This document shows, piece by piece, positions 6,521 to 50,223 of a DNA stretch of 64,000 nt. A program made the translations under genes and the position numbers. Source of the stretch: Acidobacteriota bacterium. GTDB taxonomy: Bacteria > Acidobacteriota > UBA6911. Numbering within the stretch: position 1 is the stretch's first letter; every line of letters starts with the position of its first letter. Under the pieces are notes generated by a model, which saw only the letters and a list, made by a program, of their open reading frames with translations, made no database searches and was not told where the DNA came from. Location of the stretch: assembly GCA_012719455.1 (NCBI GenBank), contig JAAYAJ010000056.1, forward strand, positions 1-64,000, given 5' to 3'.

Positions 6521-8383
6521 CTAGAACGAATCGGACGGCGGGGCTCCCATGGAAAGATCATCCACCGGGTTCCGGCCTACGATGAAATCGCCGGTGATCA
6601 TTTCCTTGTAGCCCATCCCGGGGCCGACCATCGGGTAGACGCAGGCCTCGGGGTCGATCATGACCTCCAGGAACGCCGGGCCGCCGAAGGCGATGAATTC
6701 CTCCAGCGTCTCCTCGAGCCGGGATTTGTCGGTGAGCCGGCGGGCGAACCTGAAGCCGTCGGCCTCGGCCGTCTTGACGAAATCCTTCTGTCGCAGGGAT
6801 TTGTCCGAGCCCGAGAACCGGTTGCCGAAATAGAGCTTCTGCCATTGGCGCACCATGCCGTCCCCGCGGTTGTTCAGCACGAGTACCTTGACGGGCAGGT
6901 TGTAGGTGGTGACCGTTTCCAGTTCTCCCAGGTTCATGCGCATGCTGCCGTCCCCGTCCACGTCGATCACCAGCCGGTCGGGAAAGGCCAGCTGGGCCCC
7001 GATCGCGGCGGGGAGCCCGAACCCCATGGTGGCCATCGACCCGCTGGTCAGCAGCGAGCGGGGATGCCGGATGTCCAGGTACTGGGCCGCCCACATCTGG
7101 TGCTGACCCACCCCGGTGGTGACGATGGCCTCCCCTTTCACGATCCCGCTAAGGCACTCGAGCACCTGGTGGGGCTGGATGGTGCTGGTTTCGCGGTTAT
7201 AGTTGCGTGCGTGCTGCCGCTTCAGGTCGCGCACATGCTCGAGCCACGCCGAGAAGTCCTTCCGGAACCCCTCCCCGTGCCGCATGAGGTCTTCCAGGGC
7301 CTCCCGGGCCGGGCCCACGTGGGACCATGTCACCGTCTTGACCTTGCCGATTTCGGCCGCGTCGATATCGATATGGGCCAGCATCTTCGCCTTGGGTGCA
7401 AACTCCTGCACCTTGCCGGCGACCCGGTCGTCGAAACGGGCGCCGAGGGTGATCAGGAAATCGCAGTCCATCACGGCATAGTTGGCGTAGGCCATGCCGT
7501 GCATGCCCAGCATGTGCAGCGACAGCTCGTCGGTCGTGTCCATGCTCCCGATCCCCATCAGCGTGGTCACCACCGGGATCTCGAACCTCTTCGCGAACTC
7601 GCTCAGCTGGCCGGCCGCGTCGCCCGAGATGATGCCGCCGCCGGCGCAGATCAGCGGGCGCTCGCTCCTGGCGAGGAGTTCGAAGAAGGCGCCGCAGGAC
7701 TCCTCCGACAGGCGGGAGCGGGAGAGCTCCAGCATCCGCTGCTCGTAGCCGCGGAAGTGCAGCTTCCCTTCGCCCCGGAACACCCCCTCCCAGTTCTGAA
7801 CGTCCTTGGGAACGTCGATGACAACGGGGCCGGGCCGTCCGCTGCGGGCGATCGCGAACGCGGTGCGCACCGTCGCTTCCAGTTCTTCCGGTTCCTCCAC
7901 CAGGAAGACGTGCTTGGCGCAGGGGCTCATGAAGTTGAATACCGGGGCTTCCTGGAACGCGTCGGTGCCGATGGCGGCGCGGGCGACCTGGCCGCAGATC
8001 AGCACGACCGGGACCGAATCGGCCATGCAGTCACGGATGGGGGTCAGGCTGTTGGTCGCGCCCGGCCCCGAGGTGACGATGAAGACCCCGACCTTGCCGC
8101 TGGCGCGGGCGTATCCCGCGGCCATGAACCCGGCTCCCTGCTCGTTGGCGGGAACGATGAGCTGGATCTGCTCGTGGCGGCGGTCCTGGCGATCGGCGTT
8201 GTAGAGGAAAATGGCGTCGTAGGTCGGCAGGATCGCCCCGCCGGTGTAGCCGAAAACCGTATCGACCCCTTCCTCGGCCAGTACCTGGATGATCATCTCC
8301 GCCCCGGTCATGCGCCTGCCGGCCAGCGGATGGGACTTCTGCTCCTGTGGTGCGGTCATCTCGTATTTCCTTTCCTGTTTCAT
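6521..8383 (-). CDS. ilvB: Acetolactate synthase, large catalytic subunit
   Basis: 620 aa, a thiamine-diphosphate enzyme making acetolactate or acetohydroxybutyrate, the first common step to Val, Leu and Ile. The N-terminal domain carries the glycine-rich site (VFGYTGGAILPTYDAI) and the catalytic glutamate context (NEQGAGFMAAGYARASG). The C-terminal domain has the ThDP/Mg motif GDGSMRMNLGELETVTTYNL. Its start overlaps the ilvN stop as TAATG; a second ATG nine codons in (8359) has a better AGGAAAGG site. The order ilvN then ilvB is the reverse of the usual one. Regulated by the attenuator upstream of ilvN. Confidence 0.95.
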   Translation of the reverse strand: MKQERKYEMTAPQEQKSHPLAGRRMTGAEMIIQVLAEEGVDTVFGYTGGAILPTYDAIFLYNADRQDRRHEQIQLIVPANEQGAGFMAAGYARASGKVGVFIVTSGPGATNSLTPIRDCMADSVPVVLICGQVARAAIGTDAFQEAPVFNFMSPCAKHVFLVEEPEELEATVRTAFAIARSGRPGPVVIDVPKDVQNWEGVFRGEGKLHFRGYEQRMLELSRSRLSEESCGAFFELLARSERPLICAGGGIISGDAAGQLSEFAKRFEIPVVTTLMGIGSMDTTDELSLHMLGMHGMAYANYAVMDCDFLITLGARFDDRVAGKVQEFAPKAKMLAHIDIDAAEIGKVKTVTWSHVGPAREALEDLMRHGEGFRKDFSAWLEHVRDLKRQHARNYNRETSTIQPHQVLECLSGIVKGEAIVTTGVGQHQMWAAQYLDIRHPRSLLTSGSMATMGFGLPAAIGAQLAFPDRLVIDVDGDGSMRMNLGELETVTTYNLPVKVLVLNNRGDGMVRQWQKLYFGNRFSGSDKSLRQKDFVKTAEADGFRFARRLTDKSRLEETLEEFIAFGGPAFLEVMIDPEACVYPMVGPGMGYKEMITGDFIVGRNPVDDLSMGAPPSDSF

Positions 8384-8937
8384 TAGGCCGGTTCCGTGTC
8401 CCCGTTTTTAGCCGAGAGATTTCTGTGCAGCGCCACCTTGCCGGTGCGCACCATTTCGTCGATGCCGTAGGGCCGTACGACATCGAGAAACGCTTCCACT
8501 TTTCCCGAGTCGCCGGTGACCTCGAACACGTAATTGTCGGGTGTCGCCGTGACGACGCGGGCCCGGAAGATCTCGGCCTCGGTCAGCAGGGTGGTCCGTT
8601 TCTCCTCCGGGGCTTTCACCCTGACCAGGACCAGTTCGCGCTCCACGCAGTTGGATTCGGTCAGGTCGACCGCTTCCACCGTGTCGGGCAGTTTTTCCAC
8701 CTGTCTCAGGATCTGCTGGGCCAGGAGCGGTTCACAGCGTACGACCATGGTGATTCTCGAAAGGCTGGGATCGGAGGTGCGCGCCACCGTGAGGCTCTCG
8801 ATGTTGTAGGCCCGGGCGCTGAAAAGCCCGGTGATCCGGGAAAGGACCCCGAACTTGTTTTCGACAAGAATGGAGAGCGTGCGGGTGTTTTGGGAATTCG
8901 ACTGCGAAGCGGGTGGGTTGATGGTGCTCATGGTCAC
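8383..8937 (-). CDS. ilvN: Acetolactate synthase, small regulatory subunit
   Basis: 184 aa. The N-terminal ACT domain (residues about 20-95: RTLSILVENKFGVLSRITGL, then FSARAYNIESLTVARTSD) binds the feedback inhibitor, usually valine. The C-terminal IlvN domain follows (ETVEAVDLTESNCVERELVL, then FLDVVRPYGIDEMVRTGKVA). It stimulates IlvB and makes it valine-sensitive. It is the first structural gene of the operon and lies directly behind the attenuator terminator. Confidence 0.95.
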   Translation of the reverse strand: MTMSTINPPASQSNSQNTRTLSILVENKFGVLSRITGLFSARAYNIESLTVARTSDPSLSRITMVVRCEPLLAQQILRQVEKLPDTVEAVDLTESNCVERELVLVRVKAPEEKRTTLLTEAEIFRARVVTATPDNYVFEVTGDSGKVEAFLDVVRPYGIDEMVRTGKVALHRNLSAKNGDTEPA

Positions 8938-8965
8938 TGTCTCCTGTGCTCGATATCAGGGTATG

Positions 8966-9004
8966 AAATAAAAAGGGCCGTCATCCCGGTTCGGATGACG
9001 GCCC
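8966..9004 (-). terminator. ilv attenuator: terminator hairpin plus U-tract
   Basis: A perfect 12-bp stem (8975-8986 with 8993-9004) has a six-base loop (8987-8992). On the minus strand it is followed directly by TTTTTATTT (8966-8974), a classic intrinsic terminator. It stands between the leader peptide and ilvN, so it would stop transcription before the structural genes. Its upstream arm and loop are shared with the antiterminator described separately. Confidence 0.9.
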
Positions 9005-9038
9005 TGGTGTCCCAGTTTTGGTGCCTTCATCCGAACCG
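8987..9038 (-). promoter_or_regulatory. ilv attenuator: antiterminator pairing
   Basis: On the minus strand CGGTTCGGATGA (9027-9038), spanning the last codons and stop of the leader peptide, is perfectly complementary over 12 bases to TCATCCGAACCG (8987-8998), which forms the loop and part of the 5' arm of the terminator. The two pairings are mutually exclusive. A third, weaker pairing (CCTTaCCG near 9046-9053 with CGGatgAAGG near 9024-9033) could sequester the first segment. Confidence 0.85.
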
Positions 9039-9146
9039 TAAAACTCCGGTAAGGACGTTATTGAAAATGAGTACGGTGCCTACAACGACGGACAGGGAGG
9101 TGCTTTGTGAAGTATCGATTCCAAGATGCAGGCTGAATGCTCCCAT
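9027..9146 (-). CDS. ilv leader peptide (attenuation)
   Basis: A 39-aa leader with GGAG six bases before its ATG. Residues 20-36 read VVVGTVLIFNNVLTGVL: six Val, three Leu and one Ile in 17 residues. Several codons are ones this GC-rich genome rarely uses (GTA, GTT, ATT, CTT, TTA). The TGA lies inside the antiterminator segment. Scarcity of charged Val, Leu or Ile tRNA should stall the ribosome and free that segment; full translation would cover it and let the terminator form. It acts in cis; the peptide itself has no expected function. Confidence 0.85.
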   Translation of the reverse strand: MGAFSLHLGIDTSQSTSLSVVVGTVLIFNNVLTGVLRFG

Positions 9147-9195
9147 ATTTGACTCCGTCCGCCGCCGTCCCCGATAGTGGGGAAAGCCGTTTGTT

Positions 9196-9225
9196 AGCGT
9201 ACCAAGGCGGATTCTCCGCTGTCAA
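9196..9225 (-). promoter_or_regulatory. Promoter of the ilv leader/ilvNB operon
   Basis: On the minus strand a perfect -35 box TTGACA (9220-9225) and a weaker -10 box TACGCT (9196-9201) are 18 bases apart. Transcription would start near 9189, about 43 bases before the leader peptide ATG, giving a leader RNA of roughly 220 bases up to the terminator. Confidence 0.6.
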
Positions 9226-9331
9226 CCGCGAAATCGGGGGAGCGGTGGATCGGTCGGGCCCCGTGCTATGATGGGATCATGGGCGCCCGAACGGAGAGGG
9301 TGGATAAGGAACGCATGAAGGGGCCGGATTG

Positions 9332-10210
9332 ATGACGGATGCGGACGGGACCTCGCAAAGACTGGCGGAAGCCTACCGGAGCCACGAGCGGCGGTGGCGG
9401 GACAACCTCCACGTCTACGGCGTCGTCTCCCGCAGGAGTCGCGGCCTCTCGATCGGGATCAACCTCAGCCCCGGCCGGGAATGCAACTTCAATTGCGCCT
9501 ACTGCCAGGTGGAGCGCCGCCTGGTTCCGCGCCGCCCCGCGGTCGATATCGCCGCGCTCGACCGGGAGCTGGAGGAGATCCTGCGGGCGGAGCGGGACGG
9601 GGTGCTTTACGCCGATCCTCCCTTCTCCCTGCTCGGCGCGGCCGAACGGGGTGTGCGCGATATTGCCTTCGCCGGGAACGGGGAGCCGACCCTGTACCCG
9701 CGGCTTGCCGAGGCGGTCCGCAGCGCCGCCGCCGCGCGCGCGCGCTTCGGGCTCGACGCCGCCCGGCTCGTGCTCCTGACCAACGCCGAATACCTTGACC
9801 GGCCGGCCGTGCGCCCGGCGCTCGCGGCGCTTTATGCTCACGGCGGCGAGATCTGGGCCAAGCTCGATGCGGGTTCCGAATCCTGGTTCCGGCGGGTGAA
9901 CCGGGCGCGCGCACCGCTCGAGCGCATCCTGGGCAACATCCTCGAGGCCGCCCGGAGCCGGCCGCTGGTGATCCAGTCGCTTTGGATGCGGCTGGGGGGC
10001 GAGGAGCCCCCGGTCGGGGAGATCGAGGCCTGGTGCGGGCGGTTGCGCGACATCGTCGCGGGAGGAGGGGAGATCCGGGCCGTTTACCTCTACACCGTCG
10101 CCCGTCGCCCTGCCGAGGACGCGGTCTCTCCGCTCGGCCCGCAGGGCCTGGAATCGATCGCGGCCGCCGCCAGGGCTTCGGTCCCCGTAGCCGTGGAGGT
10201 TTTTCCCTGA
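9332..10210 (+). CDS. Radical SAM protein (COG0731-like)
   Basis: 292 aa; ATG at 9332 preferred over the TTG one codon earlier. The cluster motif CNFNCAYC (Cys-x3-Cys-x2-Cys, about residues 51-58) binds the 4Fe-4S cluster that cleaves S-adenosylmethionine. FAGNGEPTLYPRL supplies the second SAM-binding motif, and IWAKLDAGS and LVIQSLWMRL are barrel strands. The layout resembles radical SAM proteins annotated as COG0731 or wyosine-like, but without the usual C-terminal extension. Substrate unknown. Its stop is three bases from the stop of the convergent lipoprotein gene. Confidence 0.75.
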   Translation: MTDADGTSQRLAEAYRSHERRWRDNLHVYGVVSRRSRGLSIGINLSPGRECNFNCAYCQVERRLVPRRPAVDIAALDRELEEILRAERDGVLYADPPFSLLGAAERGVRDIAFAGNGEPTLYPRLAEAVRSAAAARARFGLDAARLVLLTNAEYLDRPAVRPALAALYAHGGEIWAKLDAGSESWFRRVNRARAPLERILGNILEAARSRPLVIQSLWMRLGGEEPPVGEIEAWCGRLRDIVAGGGEIRAVYLYTVARRPAEDAVSPLGPQGLESIAAAARASVPVAVEVFP

Positions 10211-23017: not shown

Positions 23018-25411
23018 ATGAAAGCACCCGTATTCGGTTCCGGCGCACTCGATCTCATTGGCAACACTCCTCTTGTCCGGCTCCGGCGCCTGTGTCCCAA
23101 CCCGGAGGTCGAAATCTGGGCCAAGCTCGAAAGCGTCAATCCCGGGGGATCGATCAAGGACCGGGTCGCCCGGTCGATGATCGAGGCCGCGGAGGCCGCG
23201 GGCGAACTGAGCCGGGACAAGATCATCCTGGAGGCGACCAGCGGGAACACCGGAATCGGGCTCGCCCTGGTGGGCGGGGTGAAGGGGTACAAGGTCCTGC
23301 TGGCGATGAGCGAAGGGGTCAGCGAGGAGCGCTGCCGGATCCTGTCGGCGCTGGGCGCCGGGTTTCTCAAGACCCCGGCCCGGCTCGGCACGGACGGTGC
23401 CATCGAGGCGGTCTATCGTCTGAACCGCCAGGAGCCCGGCAGGTATTTCATCCCCGACCAGTACAACAACCCGGCCAACCCTCTGGCCCACTACCACGGC
23501 ACGGCGGTGGAGATTTGGGAGCAGACCGGGGGGAGAATCACTCACCTGGTCGCCACCATGGGGACCTCGGGCACCCTCATGGGAACAGGCCGCCGGCTCA
23601 GGGAGTACAATCCCGCGATCCGCATCATAGGCGTGGAGCCCTACCTGGGGCACAAGATCCAGGGCCTGAAGAACATGAAGGAGGCCTACCGACCGGGGAT
23701 CTTCGACCGGAAACGGCTCGACTCCAAGGTCAACATTAAGGATGACGACGCCTTTGCGACCGCCCGGCTGTTGGCGCGGGAGGAGGGGCTGTTCGTGGGG
23801 ATGAGCGCCGGGGCCGCCTGCCACGTGGCCCTTGAGACGGCCAGAGGACTCACGGGCGGCGTCATCGTCGTCATCCTTCCGGACGGGGGGGACCGTTATC
23901 TCAGCACGTCCCTCTTCCAATCCTCCGTCCCCGTTGCGCGCCGGGAGCCCCAACTGGAGCTGTACGACACGCTCTCGCGTACCCAGCGGAGATTCCAGCC
24001 GCTCGAGCCCGGGAAGGTTTCGGTCTATTCCTGCGGACCCACGGTGAACGCCCCCCCCACCCTGGGCCTGCTGCGCCGCGTGGTGGTGGCCGACCTGCTG
24101 CGGCGTGTCCTGGAATACTGCGGATTCGAGGTTCGTCACGTGATGAATATCACCGACCTGGATGACAACACGATCCAGGAATCGATCCGGCAGGGGATAG
24201 GGCTCCGGGAACTGACAGACCGCTACACGGGCGAATTCATGAATTGCCTGGACCGGCTGGGGGTCAAGCACGCCTGGAAATACCCGCGGACCTCGGAACA
24301 TGTCGACGACATGGTCGGCTTCGCGCGTGAGTTGGTGGGCGCGGGGTACGCCTACGAGAGGCTGCGCAGCGTCTATTTCGACATCAGCAGGTTCCCGAAG
24401 TACGGTGCGCTGAGCGGGCTCGATTTCTCCAAGATCAGGGTCGGTGCCACCGTGGACCTGGATGAATACGACAAGGAGAACCCCAGGGACTTCACCCTGT
24501 TCAAGCGGTCCACCCTGGCCGAAATGGCGCACGACATCTTTTACGAGACCGAATGGGGCAACGTCCGCCCCAGCTGGCACGTCCAGTGCGCGGCCATGAG
24601 CAAGCGCTACTTGGGAGAGGAGTTCGACATCCACACCGGCGGCAGCGATATCCTATTCCCCCACCACGAAAACGAAATCGCCCAGTGTGAGGCGCTCCAT
24701 GGCAAAGGGCCGGCGCGCTACTGGGTGCACTCGGGGCTGGTGCTGGCCGGGGGGAAGAAGATGTCCCGTTCGGCCGGAAACGCGGTGACGCTCGAGGACC
24801 TGCTGGGCGCGGGGTTTACCGCGCGGGAGGTCCGCTACCTGCTCCTGTCGGTCCACTACCGCCAGCCGCTCACCTATTCCCGGGAGGCCCTCCAGGCGGC
24901 CCGTGCCGCGCTCGGGCGGATCGACACCTTCGTTGCCCGGCTCAGGCTGTGCTCCGGCAAAGGATCGGGCGATTCCATCCAGGGCGCCGTCGATGAAATG
25001 ACGGCCTCCTTCGAATCCGCCCTGGAAGCCGACCTCAACGTCCCCAAGGCCTTGGGGGCCCTGTTTCTCCTGATCCGGCAGGTGAACCCGCTGCTGGCGG
25101 GCCAGGGGGTGTCGCGCAAGGATGCTGACCTGGCGCTCGCGGCTCTGGACAGGATCAACTCGGTGCTGGGATTTGTCGACCTCGACCCGGCGGAAGCCGC
25201 ACCGGCGGATCCCGAGGTGGAGGCCCTGATCGCCCGGCGCGAGGAGGCGCGGGAAAGGAAGGATTACGCCGAAGCGGACCGTATCCGCGCGGAACTGGGA
25301 AAGCGCCACATCGTCCTGGAGGACACGCCCTACGGGACGATCCATTGGACGGCCTCTCCGCCGGCCGAAGGCCCGACCGGGACCTCCTCCCCCTCTTCAT
25401 CCTCCCAATGA
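23018..25411 (+). CDS. Fusion: CysM-type cysteine synthase + cysteinyl-tRNA synthetase-like domain with degenerate HIGH
   Basis: 797 aa. Residues 1-310 are a PLP cysteine synthase: Lys47 in NPGGSIKDR, TSGNTGIGLALVGG, the GTSGTLMGTGR phosphate loop and the CysM-like end ILPDGGDRYLST. Residues from about 315 are a class I CysRS: SCGPTV (Cys339), NITDLDDNTI, WHVQCAAMSKRYLG (Cys524), GGSDILFPHHENEIAQ and KKMSRSAGN (581-585, the KMSKS loop), then a helical anticodon region and a tail ending in a Ser run. The zinc ligands are present, but HIGH is TLGL (348-351), so both histidines that help bind ATP are gone. It may still charge tRNA, or may have another cysteine-related role. Confidence 0.9.
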   Translation: MKAPVFGSGALDLIGNTPLVRLRRLCPNPEVEIWAKLESVNPGGSIKDRVARSMIEAAEAAGELSRDKIILEATSGNTGIGLALVGGVKGYKVLLAMSEGVSEERCRILSALGAGFLKTPARLGTDGAIEAVYRLNRQEPGRYFIPDQYNNPANPLAHYHGTAVEIWEQTGGRITHLVATMGTSGTLMGTGRRLREYNPAIRIIGVEPYLGHKIQGLKNMKEAYRPGIFDRKRLDSKVNIKDDDAFATARLLAREEGLFVGMSAGAACHVALETARGLTGGVIVVILPDGGDRYLSTSLFQSSVPVARREPQLELYDTLSRTQRRFQPLEPGKVSVYSCGPTVNAPPTLGLLRRVVVADLLRRVLEYCGFEVRHVMNITDLDDNTIQESIRQGIGLRELTDRYTGEFMNCLDRLGVKHAWKYPRTSEHVDDMVGFARELVGAGYAYERLRSVYFDISRFPKYGALSGLDFSKIRVGATVDLDEYDKENPRDFTLFKRSTLAEMAHDIFYETEWGNVRPSWHVQCAAMSKRYLGEEFDIHTGGSDILFPHHENEIAQCEALHGKGPARYWVHSGLVLAGGKKMSRSAGNAVTLEDLLGAGFTAREVRYLLLSVHYRQPLTYSREALQAARAALGRIDTFVARLRLCSGKGSGDSIQGAVDEMTASFESALEADLNVPKALGALFLLIRQVNPLLAGQGVSRKDADLALAALDRINSVLGFVDLDPAEAAPADPEVEALIARREEARERKDYAEADRIRAELGKRHIVLEDTPYGTIHWTASPPAEGPTGTSSPSSSSQ

Positions 25412-37441: not shown

Positions 37442-38611
37442 ATGATCCTGGACCGTGAAATCATCTACCTGGCCGTCAGGTCTTTCCCCGTGGCCGTGGA
37501 ACGGGTGGTGCATCCCGAATTGCGCCGCCGCCCCGTGGTGGTCGCTCCCCGCTCCGCGGCGCGTTCCGTCGTGACGGCCCTGTCCCCGGAGGCCTGGAGG
37601 GCGGGGGTCCGCAAGGGGATGCCGCTGGCCCGGGCGCTGCGCTGCTGCCGGGACACGATCGTGCTGCCGCCGAACGAACCTCTCTACCTCCGGGCCTCCC
37701 GCGCGATATGCGGAGTCCTGGCGGCCTACTCCCCGGTGCTCGAACCCTCGGGTTACGGTCACGCCTACCTGGATGTCACGGGAACCGGCCGGCTCTGGGG
37801 CCCGCCGCGGGACGCCGCCTGGAAGGCGCGGCGGGAAATCCGGCGGCGACTGGGCCTCGAGGCCGCGCTCGGGATCGCCTCCAATAAAATGGTCAGCCGG
37901 ATCGCGTCGGAGGTGACGCGGACGGCGGGGTTGCAGGACGTGCCGCACGGGGACGAAGCTTCCTTTCTCTCCCCTTTGCCGGTGGGGCTGCTCCCGGGCG
38001 TCGGGCCCCGGACCGGGGAACGGTTCCGGGAACTGAACCTGAGCGTCATCCGTGATGTCGCCGCCATGCGGCCGGAACATCTCGCCCTGGCGTTCGGTCG
38101 TTTCGGTTTCCTGCTCCGCGAGCGGGCCCTGGGGATCGACCGCACCCCGGTGGTTCCGGCACGATCGGTTCCGGCGCTGGAACTGGAAAAGGCGCTGGGC
38201 GAAGACTCGAACGATTACGGTTTGCTTGCAAGGGAACTCGCGGGGCTCTGCGCCCGGGCGGGGGAGCGGCTGCGCGCGGAAGGGCGGCGCGCCGGGCGGG
38301 TGGAGGTGAGGGTGCGCTACGCCGACTACGGGGAGGGGGTGGGGAGGGCGGGTATGGCCGTGCCGCTCGAGTCATCGGCCGCCCTGTACGGCGCGGCCCT
38401 TCCCCTGCTCCGCCGGGCTCTCGGCCGGCGCACGCGCGTGCGGAGCATGCGCCTGCGGCTCGAGGCGCTCTCCGCGGGGCCGGTCCAAATGGACCTGTTC
38501 GCCGACCCGGGGGCCGCGCGCCGCCTGAAACTCGAACAGGCGCTCGACGCGCTCGGCCGCCGCTACGGCCGTCCCGTCCTCCTCCCCGCGTCGTTGTCCG
38601 CCGGGGCGTGA
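37442..38611 (+). CDS. imuB: ImuB-like inactive Y-family polymerase
   Basis: 389 aa. The Y-family fold is plain (YLAVRSFPVAVERVVHPEL, GIASNKMVSRIASEVTRTAG, LLPGVGPRTGERFRELNL), but the catalytic carboxylates are gone. The first motif, normally xxDMDxFYAxVE, has no Asp. The second, normally SxDExYLDVT, reads GYGHAYLDVTG. Such loss defines ImuB, which acts as an adaptor in the ImuA-ImuB-DnaE2 mutasome. A clamp-binding motif QMDLF lies near residue 353 (SAGPVQMDLFADPG), as ImuB requires. Its TGA overlaps the GTG of dnaE2. It is shorter than many ImuB proteins, lacking the long C-terminal tail. Confidence 0.85.
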   Translation: MILDREIIYLAVRSFPVAVERVVHPELRRRPVVVAPRSAARSVVTALSPEAWRAGVRKGMPLARALRCCRDTIVLPPNEPLYLRASRAICGVLAAYSPVLEPSGYGHAYLDVTGTGRLWGPPRDAAWKARREIRRRLGLEAALGIASNKMVSRIASEVTRTAGLQDVPHGDEASFLSPLPVGLLPGVGPRTGERFRELNLSVIRDVAAMRPEHLALAFGRFGFLLRERALGIDRTPVVPARSVPALELEKALGEDSNDYGLLARELAGLCARAGERLRAEGRRAGRVEVRVRYADYGEGVGRAGMAVPLESSAALYGAALPLLRRALGRRTRVRSMRLRLEALSAGPVQMDLFADPGAARRLKLEQALDALGRRYGRPVLLPASLSAGA

Positions 38612-41595
38612 AAGGGACCATGTTCGTCCACCTGCACGTTCATTCCCACTACTCCTTCTGCCGCGGCGCCAGCAGCATCGAAGCGCTGGTGGACGCGGCC
38701 CTGGAGCGGGGGATGACGGAGCTCGCGCTGACCGACATCAACGGTGTCTACGGGTTGGTCCGGTTCCTTCAATACTCCGCCGAGCGGGGGGTGCGCCCCA
38801 TCGTCGGGGCGGAACTGCGGGTGGAAGGGGAGCGGGCGATCCTGCTGGCGCGCAACCGTGAAGGGTACTCCCTGCTCTGCCGCATCGTCTCCGGGCTCCG
38901 GGCGCCCGGCTTCCGCCTCTCCCGCGCCCTCATGGAAGAGCGGGAAAACCTGGTGGTGCTCAGCGACCAGGTCCCGTTGCTGGAGGCGCTCGCCCGCCAG
39001 AACGGGACCTCGGGCCTCTACGTTGCGCTCGACGATCCCCGGACGGAAGCGGGTCTCGTCGCTTTTTCCCGGGCCTCGGCCGTTCCCCCCGTGGCGACCA
39101 ACGACGTCCATTTCGCGCACCCGTCCGATTACGCGCTCCACCGGTTGTTGCGCGCCATCGGCCTGAACACCTCCCTGTCCCGGATCCCGCCGGGGGAACT
39201 GGCGGGGGAGGACCGGTGGCTGAAGCCGGAGGAGGCGATGGCGCGGCGCTACCCGCACCTCGACCGCGCCCTGCAAAACGCCGCCCGCATCGCCGATGAA
39301 TGCCGGGCCGAACTGGATATGGGCAAGCCGGTGTTCCCGGGCTGCGACCTTCCCGAAGGCGCCGACGCTTTCGGGTATCTGCGGGAGGAGTGTTTCCGGG
39401 GGGCCGCGCGCCGCTACGGGGGGCTTCCCGGTGCGGTGTCGAAGCGTCTGGACCACGAACTGGGCATCATCGAGTCGAAGGGGTTCGCCCCCTATTTCCT
39501 GGTGGTGCGGGACATCGTCCGTCGCTCGGCACGCACCTGCGGCCGGGGGTCGGCCGCGGCCAGCCTCGTCTCCTACTGCCTGGGGATCACCCACGTGGAT
39601 CCGATCGCCCACGACCTTTTTTTCGAGCGCTTCCTCAACGAGGGGCGCAACGATCCGCCCGACATCGACATCGATTTTCCGTGGGACGAGCGGGACGGCG
39701 TCCTCGAGGACGTGTTCCGGAAATACGGCTCCGGGCGGGTGGCCATGATCGCCAACCACGTGGGGTTCGGCGCCCGCGCGGCCGTCCGGGAAGTGGCCAG
39801 GGTGTACGGCATCCCCGAGGTCGAGATCCAGGCGGTCACCCGGCGCATAGGTTATTACTGGGCGCTTGCCCATCTCGAAGACGCCGTGCGCCATCACCCC
39901 GTTTTCAAGGACATGGATCTGGGCGATCCCTGGCCCGAGATCATCCGCATGGCCGTGCGGCTCGACGGCTGTCCCCGGCACCTGTCCGTTCATTGCGGCG
40001 GCGTCGTCATCGTGCCCGACCGCATCGACCGTTACGTGCCCGTGGAGACGGCGCCTAAAGGGGTCCCGATCATCCAGTGGGAGAAGGACCAGGCGGAAGA
40101 CGCGGGCCTGATCAAGATCGACCTCCTGGGCAACCGCTCGCTGGCGGTTATCCGGGATGCGCTCGCGGCCGTCCGGGAGCACTGCGGGGTGGATATCGAC
40201 TACGAACGCTGGAACCCCACCGACGACGCCCGGACGCAGGACCTCATCCGCAGGGGGGACACGCTGGGGGTTTTTTACGTGGAATCCCCCTCCATGCGGC
40301 AGCTGCTGCAGAAGTGCGGCACCGGTGATTTCGACCACCTGGTGATTCACAGCTCCATCATCCGTCCTGCCGCCAACCGGTATATCCGCGAGTACGTCCG
40401 GCGGTTGCGGGGCGGCGCCTGGAAGTCGCTCCACCCCGTCCTGGACGAAGTCCTCCGCGAGACGTACGGGATCATGGTCTACCAGGAGGACGTTTCGCGT
40501 ATCGCGATGGCGCTCGCGGGGTTCGGCGAGGCCGATGCCGACATGCTCCGAAAGGTGCTTTCCAGGAAACGGGCGGGCAAAGAGCTCGAGGATTTCCGGG
40601 AGAGGTTCTATGCCGGCGCGGCCGGCGGCGGCGTTCCCCGGGTGACGGTGGACGAGGTCTGGGAGATGATCCTGAGTTTTTCCGGGTACTCGTTCTGCAA
40701 ACCGCACTCGGCCTCCTATGCCCTGGTTTCCTACAAGTCCTGCTACCTGCGGGCGCATTACCCGGCAGAGTTCATGGCCGCGGTCCTCACCAACGGGGGA
40801 GGGTACTATTCGGCCTTCGCCTACGTGTCCGAAGCCCGCAGGATGGGACTCGAGGTGCGGCTCCCGGACGTCAACGAAAGCGGACGGGAGTACCGGGGCC
40901 GGGGGAAGACGCTGCGCGTCGGGTTGATGCAGCTCAAGGGGCTCGGCCGGTCGGCGCTCGAGGCGATCCTGGCGGCGCGCCGCGACGGGCCGTTCCGGTC
41001 GCCGGACGATTTCCTGCGCCGCGTCCCCATCGACGTGGCGGACGTGAAGACCCTCGTCAAGGCCGGCGCCATGGACGGGATCTCCGGCGGCGCCACCCGG
41101 CCGGAAATGATCTGGAAGGCGCTCCAGCAGCGGGAAACCCGCGGCGGGCGCCGGCCGGAAACCCGTTCGCTTTTCGAGGACCTGCCTCCGGTGGAGATCC
41201 CCCGGGTGCCGCAGTACTCCCCGCACACCATCCTGGAGCATGAACTGGAGACGCTCGGTTTCCTCCTCAGCCGCCACCCGCTCGCGCTCTACGCGCGGGC
41301 GTTGGCGCAACGGAAATGCGTCCGGGGCGCCGACCTGCCCGGATATGTGGGGAAACGCGTGACCACGGTGGGCTGGTGGGTGACGGGCAAGCTCATCACG
41401 ACCCGGGACGACGAGCCGATGGAGTTCATCAGTTTCGAGGATACCAGCGCCCTGTACGAAACCGTCTTTTTCCCGGAAGCCTACGCCCGTTTCTGCCACA
41501 TGCTGAATCGTTCCCGCCCCTACCTGCTCGGCGGCACGGTCCTGGAGGAGTTCGGCGCGATTACACTCGCCGTCGACTCGGTGCGCTTTCTTTAG
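38608..41595 (+). CDS. dnaE2: Error-prone DNA polymerase III alpha, DnaE2/ImuC type
   Basis: 995 aa. An N-terminal PHP domain (VHLHVHSHYSFCRGASSIEA) is followed by the C-family palm. The catalytic aspartates are in PPDIDIDFPWDERD, and a third is in LIKIDLLGNRS. The fingers and the CKPHSASYALVSYKSCYLRA segment are complete, with a helix-hairpin-helix (LKGLGRSALEAILAARRDGP). A C-terminal OB domain follows (KRVTTVGWWVTGKLITTRDD). The size and the lack of a tau-binding tail fit DnaE2, the mutasome polymerase used in damage-induced mutagenesis. It is translationally coupled to imuB. ImuA is not in the window. Confidence 0.92.
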   Translation: MKGTMFVHLHVHSHYSFCRGASSIEALVDAALERGMTELALTDINGVYGLVRFLQYSAERGVRPIVGAELRVEGERAILLARNREGYSLLCRIVSGLRAPGFRLSRALMEERENLVVLSDQVPLLEALARQNGTSGLYVALDDPRTEAGLVAFSRASAVPPVATNDVHFAHPSDYALHRLLRAIGLNTSLSRIPPGELAGEDRWLKPEEAMARRYPHLDRALQNAARIADECRAELDMGKPVFPGCDLPEGADAFGYLREECFRGAARRYGGLPGAVSKRLDHELGIIESKGFAPYFLVVRDIVRRSARTCGRGSAAASLVSYCLGITHVDPIAHDLFFERFLNEGRNDPPDIDIDFPWDERDGVLEDVFRKYGSGRVAMIANHVGFGARAAVREVARVYGIPEVEIQAVTRRIGYYWALAHLEDAVRHHPVFKDMDLGDPWPEIIRMAVRLDGCPRHLSVHCGGVVIVPDRIDRYVPVETAPKGVPIIQWEKDQAEDAGLIKIDLLGNRSLAVIRDALAAVREHCGVDIDYERWNPTDDARTQDLIRRGDTLGVFYVESPSMRQLLQKCGTGDFDHLVIHSSIIRPAANRYIREYVRRLRGGAWKSLHPVLDEVLRETYGIMVYQEDVSRIAMALAGFGEADADMLRKVLSRKRAGKELEDFRERFYAGAAGGGVPRVTVDEVWEMILSFSGYSFCKPHSASYALVSYKSCYLRAHYPAEFMAAVLTNGGGYYSAFAYVSEARRMGLEVRLPDVNESGREYRGRGKTLRVGLMQLKGLGRSALEAILAARRDGPFRSPDDFLRRVPIDVADVKTLVKAGAMDGISGGATRPEMIWKALQQRETRGGRRPETRSLFEDLPPVEIPRVPQYSPHTILEHELETLGFLLSRHPLALYARALAQRKCVRGADLPGYVGKRVTTVGWWVTGKLITTRDDEPMEFISFEDTSALYETVFFPEAYARFCHMLNRSRPYLLGGTVLEEFGAITLAVDSVRFL

Positions 41596-49044: not shown

Positions 49045-50223
49045 ATGGAGCGGACGATCCTGCACGTCGACATGGACGCCTTCTACGCGGCGGTCGAGCA
49101 GCGCGACCACCCCGAGTACCGCGGCCGGCCCGTCATCGTGGGGGCGGACCCCAGGGGAGGGCGCGGGCGGGGGATCGTGGCGACCTGTTCGTACGAGGCC
49201 CGCAGGTTCGGGGTCCGTTCCGCCCAGCCGATTTCGGAGGCGTGGAGGCTGTGCCCCGGAGGGGTTTATCTCCGCCCCGACATGCGCAAGTATTCCCGGG
49301 TTTCAGGCCTCGTCATGGGAATCCTGTCCGGGTTCACCGATCTCGTGGAGCCGGTGAGCGTCGACGAGGCCTTCCTGGATGTCACCGGGTGCCGCCGGTT
49401 GTTCGGGCCGGGAGAGGTCATCGCCCGGAAGCTCAGGGAACGGATCAGTCGGGAACTCGATCTCACGGCCTCCGTGGGGGTCGCGACGAACAAGTTCGTG
49501 GCCAAGGTGGCCTCCGACCTGGACAAACCGGACGGGCTCGTCGTCGTCGAGCCGGGGCGCGAACGGGAATTCCTGGCCCCCCTGGCCATCGGCAGGCTCT
49601 GGGGGATCGGGCCGAAGACGGAGGCGCGGCTCAAGGCGCTGGGAGTCGGGACCGTGGGGCAACTGGCCGCCCTGGGCGCCGGGGCGGCCGCCCGCCTGCT
49701 GGGGGACCATGGAGAGAGGCTCTGGCTCCTGGCCTGCGGGATCGACGACCGGCCGGTATCGGCGGGGACGGGGTGCAGGAGCATCGGCCACGAAGTCACC
49801 TTCGAACGCGACACCGCCGACCGGCTGCGGCTCCGGAACACGCTCCTCGACCTTTCGGAAAAGGTGGCGCGGCGGTTGAGGGCCGAGGGGGTCCGCGCCC
49901 GCACTGTCACCCTCAAGTTCCGCCGGTCCGATTTCACCACCTCGACCCGGCGCCGATCGCTCGCGGAGGCGGTGGATACGGCCGAAGCGGTCTTCCCGGT
50001 GGCCCTGGACCTGTTCGAGGGGTTGTTCCGCGACGGGATGGAGGTGCGGCTCCTCGGAGTCACCGCTTCCGGCCTGGAGCCGGGCGGGGGACAGCGGGAG
50101 CTTTTCCCCCCCGCCCCGGCGCGGGACCGGAAACTGGCCGAGGCGGCCGACGACATCGTGCGGCGCTTCGGCGCGCGGGCGATCACGCGCGGGTCGCTCC
50201 TCGGCGGAAAAGAGGGCGCCTGA
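49045..50223 (+). CDS. dinB: DNA polymerase IV (Y family), catalytically intact
   Basis: 392 aa. The first catalytic motif is LHVDMDAFYAAVEQRDHPEY, with the metal-binding Asp. The second is VEPVSVDEAFLDVTGCRRLF, with Asp-Glu. ASVGVATNKFVAKVASDLDK then LWGIGPKTEARLKALGV are the palm and helix-hairpin-helix. The little-finger domain follows, and a clamp motif QRELF (GGGQRELFPPAPA) lies near the end. It performs translesion synthesis. It contrasts with the inactive ImuB-like protein at 37442. It is divergent from galE. Confidence 0.95.
   Translation: MERTILHVDMDAFYAAVEQRDHPEYRGRPVIVGADPRGGRGRGIVATCSYEARRFGVRSAQPISEAWRLCPGGVYLRPDMRKYSRVSGLVMGILSGFTDLVEPVSVDEAFLDVTGCRRLFGPGEVIARKLRERISRELDLTASVGVATNKFVAKVASDLDKPDGLVVVEPGREREFLAPLAIGRLWGIGPKTEARLKALGVGTVGQLAALGAGAAARLLGDHGERLWLLACGIDDRPVSAGTGCRSIGHEVTFERDTADRLRLRNTLLDLSEKVARRLRAEGVRARTVTLKFRRSDFTTSTRRRSLAEAVDTAEAVFPVALDLFEGLFRDGMEVRLLGVTASGLEPGGGQRELFPPAPARDRKLAEAADDIVRRFGARAITRGSLLGGKEGA

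Follow-up and report, generated by a model that had tools for sequence, protein, structure and literature searches.

The window analysed here comprises 64,000 nt (positions 1 to 64,000 of contig JAAYAJ010000056.1, assembly GCA_012719455.1) from an Acidobacteriota bacterium. On its minus strand it carries ilvN (8383-8931), which encodes an acetolactate synthase small subunit of 182 aa (TIGR00119 and NF008864 above cut-off), and ilvB (6521-8383), which encodes the large subunit of 620 aa (TIGR00118 above cut-off). The region of interest is flanked by these two genes and by a divergent radical-SAM gene (9329-10210, plus strand). All its features lie on the minus strand. A promoter was read directly from the sequence at 9196-9225, with TTGACA at 9225-9220, an 18-nt spacer and TACGCT at 9201-9196 preceded by a TG-type extended −10; transcription is expected to start near 9190-9188. 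It was overlooked by the promoter and terminator scan, by whose rule TACGCT is a poor −10 element, and was retained as a feature because it is conserved: TTGACA and TA(C/G/A)GCT, with TG preceding the −10, are kept in relatives.

Between this promoter and ilvN lies a short open reading frame (9027-9146) with its own ribosome site. The Shine-Dalgarno sequence GGAG (9153-9156) is located 6 nt upstream of the ATG at 9146, and GGAGGA, GAGGA or GGGG is found close to the same position in relatives. The encoded leader peptide of 39 aa, MGAFSLHLGIDTSQSTSLSVVVGTVLIFNNVLTGVLRFG, becomes rich in Val, Leu and Ile towards its C-terminus (10 among the last 21 residues) and ends at a TGA codon at 9029-9027. 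Both the promoter and the 39-aa leader with its ribosome site had been named in a preliminary description of this DNA, and both were borne out. The fold also contained a hairpin at 9166-9088 that would sequester the Shine-Dalgarno sequence, and some relatives have similar pairings; as it was not more stable than shuffles (z 0.3), we rejected it.

Three mutually exclusive helices were predicted downstream of the leader start. The protector helix (1:2) is formed by segment 1 (9047-9057), inside the leader ORF, and segment 2 (9027-9038); CGTCC-ACCG at 9057-9047 pairs with CGGT-GGATG at 9038-9028 (−13.3 kcal/mol). In the antiterminator (2:3), segment 2, CGGTTCGGATGA (9038-9027), pairs at 12 of 12 positions with segment 3, TCATCCGAACCG (8998-8987), which overlaps the 5' arm and loop of the terminator. 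The TGA stop codon of the leader is located within the 5' arm of the antiterminator. This helix is extended by GGC (9025-9023) paired with GCC (9002-9000), which enclose a small hairpin of the CTGG/CCAG type; extension and internal hairpin included, its energy is −32.3 kcal/mol. The third helix (3:4) is an intrinsic terminator (8966-9005) with a 13-bp stem and a 6-nt loop, in which the hairpin at 9005-8974 (−28 kcal/mol, z −7) is followed by the U tract TTTTTATTT. The 225-nt leader RNA was much more stable than dinucleotide shuffles (z −4.2), and its minimum-energy form contained 1:2 and 3:4. Together these two helices amount to about −42 kcal/mol, compared with about −32 for 2:3, and they are predicted to be favoured over 2:3 unless segment 1 is covered. 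The same topology of alternating hairpins occurs in the E. coli trp leader. The folding thus agrees with the preliminary description in the perfect 12-nt antiterminator and in its stop codon. The terminator and U tract reported there are also present, with a stem of 13 bp instead of 12. That account had presented its elements as the complete set for classical attenuation; those listed are real, but the conserved protector helix was overlooked.

To follow the element in relatives, IlvN was searched in 60 genomes, and orthologues were found in the genus of the window (g1) and in G011, a member of another genus of the same family. Their IlvB proteins are 73-91% identical. All eight other g1 genomes in which the sequence upstream of ilvN could be read, and G011 as well, carry the attenuator, and all nine keep a branched-chain leader, an antiterminator with the stop codon in its arm and a terminator. 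The comparison with relatives proposed in the preliminary description thus supports its reading. G002, in which ilvN runs off the contig, stood outside the comparison, and in G006 a contig ends inside the leader and truncates the element. The gene order in G011 is leader-ilvN-ilvC-ilvB. The 16S gene of this genome begins with GATCCTGGCTCAGAATC, which is identical to Acid31, a primer for Acidobacteria (PMC4461295). A search for 16S in the genome of the window found none, and its phylum is assigned through this family member.

Among the ten sequences the mean column identity of the region was 62%, whereas segment 2 and the GGC that follows it were invariant, as was the GCC of the extension. The orthologous leaders end in RFG before the stop codon, mostly as (V/I)LTG..RFG, and their last 21 codons include 7-13 for Val, Leu or Ile in every case. 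The three alternative helices folded in 9 of the 9 genomes examined (−12 to −16, −26 to −36 and −19 to −28 kcal/mol). Covariation was seen in the terminator, where two basal pairs had changed on both sides and 93.8% of cells were paired; its score was reached by 2 of 500 shuffles and lay above that of every slid register. In the protector helix 97.8% of cells were paired across the ten genomes, and in G011 the helix is re-registered with its pairing preserved. The antiterminator arms hardly vary and so display conservation rather than covariation. That covariation is modest can be explained by the three duties of segment 2, which takes part in two pairings and holds the stop codon.

When 38 genomes of the class were searched with a covariance model of the attenuator core (R1), high scores were confined to these genomes of the two genera, which indicates that the ilvN element is young or fast-changing. 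Two weak matches (L124 in G004 and L127 in G006) were tRNA genes followed by terminators and were discarded as false positives. An identical 94-nt attenuator core was seen twice in G006, at a contig end (G006:C30:1-94, L123) and near a contig start (G006:C70), probably through assembly overlap rather than as a second copy.

Codon choice in the leaders departs strongly from that of the genome. In 17 genes of the window Val is encoded by GTA in 2.4% of cases and Leu by CTT in 4.5%; the ten leaders use GTA for 24 of their 52 Val codons and CTT for 11 of their 18 Leu codons, an enrichment whose significance is overstated by binomial values because the leader sequences are related. GTA and CTT are the best-conserved rare codons and are retained against a strong genomic bias. 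Besides GTA, the preliminary description had proposed TTA and ATT as rare regulatory codons. TTA is indeed used for about 0% of Leu in the window genes, but this codon (Leu36) is kept in just 3 of the 10 leaders and lies on the wrong side of the switch; ATT (9.5% of Ile) is only mildly rare.

The codons able to act on the switch were estimated by footprint arithmetic, in which the leading edge of the ribosome lies about 12-14 nt beyond the start of the A site. With the A site at Ile27, Val31 or Leu32 the leading edge would fall at about 9056-9039, so that the stalled ribosome covers segment 1 and ends just short of segment 2, which begins at 9038. A ribosome at the stop codon would mask segment 2, since the stop sits within it. 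Stalling at Val35 or Leu36 (TTA) would also cover segment 2 and cause termination. We therefore predict that the effective control codons lie at about residues 25-32, with Val25 (GTA), Leu26, Ile27, Val31 and Leu32 (CTT) at 9051-9074 as candidates from the footprint together with the conservation of GTA and CTT. The regulatory stretch had been placed earlier at residues 20-36; the richness in Val, Leu and Ile was confirmed, but by this reckoning only the part from about 25 to 32 can act. The Val codons at 20-22 are too distant from segment 1 for masking by a simple footprint, which counts against the stalling model.

Weak R1 matches also pointed to a second attenuator, before cimA. The best NCBIfam match of the cimA product was TIGR00977 (citramalate synthase), below the full-length cut-off for the partial protein that was scanned. 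In the genome of the window the cimA leader (L213/L147, G000:C43, about 8758, plus strand) reads MHPDRGIDTRIAITGITGGTPGG. Comparable Ile-rich leaders were found before cimA in G003, G004, G005, G006, G008, G010, G011 and G013 (cimA leader loci L143-L146, L148, L153, L224 and L227); wherever the layout was examined, the stop codon again falls within the antiterminator arm. Citramalate synthase feeds isoleucine only, and leaders rich in Ile alone therefore fit the pathway. The ilv and cimA attenuators have a common core, CGGAT-stop-GGC ... GCC-TCATCCG, in which the antiterminator arm holds the stop codon. A sequence of the form TTGCAAAC...TGTGGCA is conserved some 30-60 nt before the start codons of the cimA leaders (L143-L148 and L153); it may be an unusual promoter or else a site for a regulator.

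A third attenuator was located before trpE. Its leader in the same genome (L158, G000:C90) reads MTGTVFLPFCMWCWRRRAKAAWVGWSPVP and is accompanied by a terminator and an antiterminator, and similar Trp-rich trpE leaders occur in members of the genus and the family. In another family of the class (f8), leaders of unrelated sequence are found: Trp leaders precede trpE (MEVNSSLWHWWY, MKVNSSLWHWWY and one ending in LWRWWYS), and leaders rich in Val, Leu and Ile precede ilvD operons (G023, MNSLLLLNINLLLVLIVLIIGLRGWPMLGAQIETIT, L202; G026, MDFTPVIKSLLIIVIVIGIIALSGGRMMGAQALKQA, L205). The f8 ilvD leaders have terminators and antiterminators. The Trp-rich trpE leaders with terminators, those of f8 included, are L158, L159, L161 and L164, and L251, L258, L262 and L263. 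The scan found no attenuator before leuA, ilvC or ilvD in the genome of the window. Each time the composition of the leader follows the pathway, with Val, Leu and Ile for ilv, Ile for cimA and Trp for trpE, and no other indirect evidence speaks as strongly for amino-acid sensing. Part of the Acidobacteriota may use leader-peptide attenuation as a regular means of control (ilvN-ilvB, ilvD, cimA and trpE), and the attenuators of ilv and cimA may, in addition, both derive from a single ancestral module that moved between operons, its leader codons changing from Val/Leu/Ile to Ile in the process; we offer this combined proposal tentatively, as somewhat doubtful.

The element upstream of ilvN-ilvB is very probably a transcription attenuator of the classical ribosome-mediated kind, which controls these two genes in response to the supply of charged tRNA for Val, Leu and Ile. 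Classical attenuation was already the reading of the preliminary description and is supported here by comparison across relatives. The analysis shows the sequence, the alternative helices in predicted folds, the conservation and the codon choice, from which translation of the ilvN leader, stalling, termination and the response to amino acids are inferred. According to this model, transcription would start near 9190 and a ribosome would load onto the leader. With branched-chain amino acids in good supply, the ribosome would reach the stop codon in segment 2 and cover this arm, 3:4 would form and transcription would end near 8970. When charged tRNA is short, a ribosome held at Ile27, Val31 or Leu32 would cover segment 1 but not segment 2, allowing the 2:3 antiterminator to form and polymerase to continue into ilvN-ilvB. 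Should no ribosome be present, the default would be off, because 1:2 plus 3:4 outcompetes 2:3 in predicted energy.

The leader ORF and the terminator could be real and yet regulate independently of codon stalling, either as a constitutive terminator or because leader translation as such sets read-through. There is a precedent in Streptomyces coelicolor, in which the regulatory codons of a similar-looking ilvB leader could be mutated without effect (PMC1262725). The retention of GTA and CTT against genomic bias, the position of the stop codon within the antiterminator arm in all ten sequences and the shift of leader composition to Ile for cimA and Trp for trpE all argue against such an arrangement, which we regard as improbable. 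It is less probable still, and by some way, that the RNA binds a ligand, whether as a T-box that senses tRNA or otherwise, and that its ORF is incidental. The same genes are under T-box or riboswitch control in other phyla (PMC5794164; PMC10272879); here, no Rfam family, T-box included, matched the window at gathering score and none of relevance matched 8900-9300 at E up to 5, and what is conserved is the ORF, the stop codon in the arm and three helices, with no aptamer-like core. Hairpins form easily in high-GC sequence, but a short ORF that arose at random and merely happens to precede an ordinary terminator hardly merits belief: 60 dinucleotide-shuffled windows, both strands scanned, gave six short ORFs rich in Val, Leu and Ile before a terminator and none with a comparable antiterminator, against exactly one complete leader, terminator and antiterminator in the real window, and this reading is already refuted by the conservation of the element, covariation included, across two genera (nine further genomes).

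The IlvB tree placed the enzymes of g1 and G011 with a mostly gammaproteobacterial clade, apart from the large subunits of the remaining members of the class. IlvB of the window is 61-68% identical to these mostly gammaproteobacterial enzymes and about 36-46% identical to others; IlvN is of the ordinary type. The ilvB gene was thus likely acquired by horizontal transfer. We considered whether the attenuator had been transferred along with it and rejected this, as no leader with a terminator was found in the 500 nt preceding the related ilvB genes of gammaproteobacteria. The attenuator therefore probably did not arrive together with ilvB.

Leader-peptide attenuation has long been documented mainly in Proteobacteria and Actinobacteria. 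The ilvL/ilvGMEDA and trpL systems of enterobacteria use the logic of 1:2, 2:3 and 3:4 helices, an intrinsic terminator and leader codons for the end products, all of which recur in the ilvN attenuator, but there is no detectable sequence relationship. Neither an Rfam match nor a leader beside the related ilvB genes was found that would point to common descent with the enterobacterial ilv leader.

The nearest functional parallel is ilvBNC of Corynebacterium (ilvB-II motif), in which a leader rich in branched-chain residues precedes a terminator, antiterminator and anti-antiterminator before the acetolactate synthase operon (PMC11857589, PMC10272879). Its proposed control codons, CUU and GUA (PMC11857589), are the two rare codons conserved here. 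However, its leader of 15 aa, MTIIRLVVVTARRLP, begins beside the transcription start and its operon order is ilvBNC, whereas the leader in the window has 39 aa, a Shine-Dalgarno sequence, an unrelated sequence and an ilvN-ilvB order, in an Acidobacteriota host. The ilvB-OMG and Leptospira ilvB motifs are likewise RNA motifs found before ilvB outside the classical phyla, and have been reinterpreted as upstream ORFs rich in branched-chain codons that likely act by attenuation (PMC10272879); the window matches no Rfam family. In Staphylococcus aureus an Ile/Leu-rich leader peptide and a terminator precede branched-chain genes at ilvD (PMC5794164), but this is a Firmicutes system in which the proposed antiterminator captures the poly-U tail and CodY adds control.

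Attenuation of ilvB genes by upstream ORFs has been argued to be common (PMC10272879), and in 2010 almost no predicted attenuators of Acidobacteria had an associated function (PMC2965389). The literature searched, from which the 2010 comparative survey by Lopatovskaya et al. (cited in PMC10272879) was absent, contained no paper that treats leader peptides, attenuation and the biosynthesis of amino acids together for Acidobacteria. The mechanism, classical ribosome-mediated attenuation, is already known; the Acidobacteriota host and the use across pathways there are new. One genome holds a complete, conserved example along with related elements for Ile and for Trp, and the same pathways are served by unrelated leaders in another family of the class, so that a deep phylum becomes available for testing whether attenuators originate by inheritance, transfer or repeated invention. 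Ready predictions on starvation-sensitive codons follow from the conserved leaders and their rare GTA and CTT codons. These leaders also account for untranslated regions skipped by standard annotation and point to control by amino acids in bacteria of which little more than the sequence is known.

Other genes of the window, all on the plus strand, were noted in passing. A single reading frame of 797 aa (23018-25411) joins a PALP domain of the cysteine synthase type to a complete cysteinyl-tRNA synthetase and is apparently a natural fusion. At 37442-41595 a Y-family polymerase gene overlaps a DNA polymerase III alpha-like gene in an ImuB-DnaE2-like arrangement, and a second Y-family polymerase is encoded at 49045-50223.
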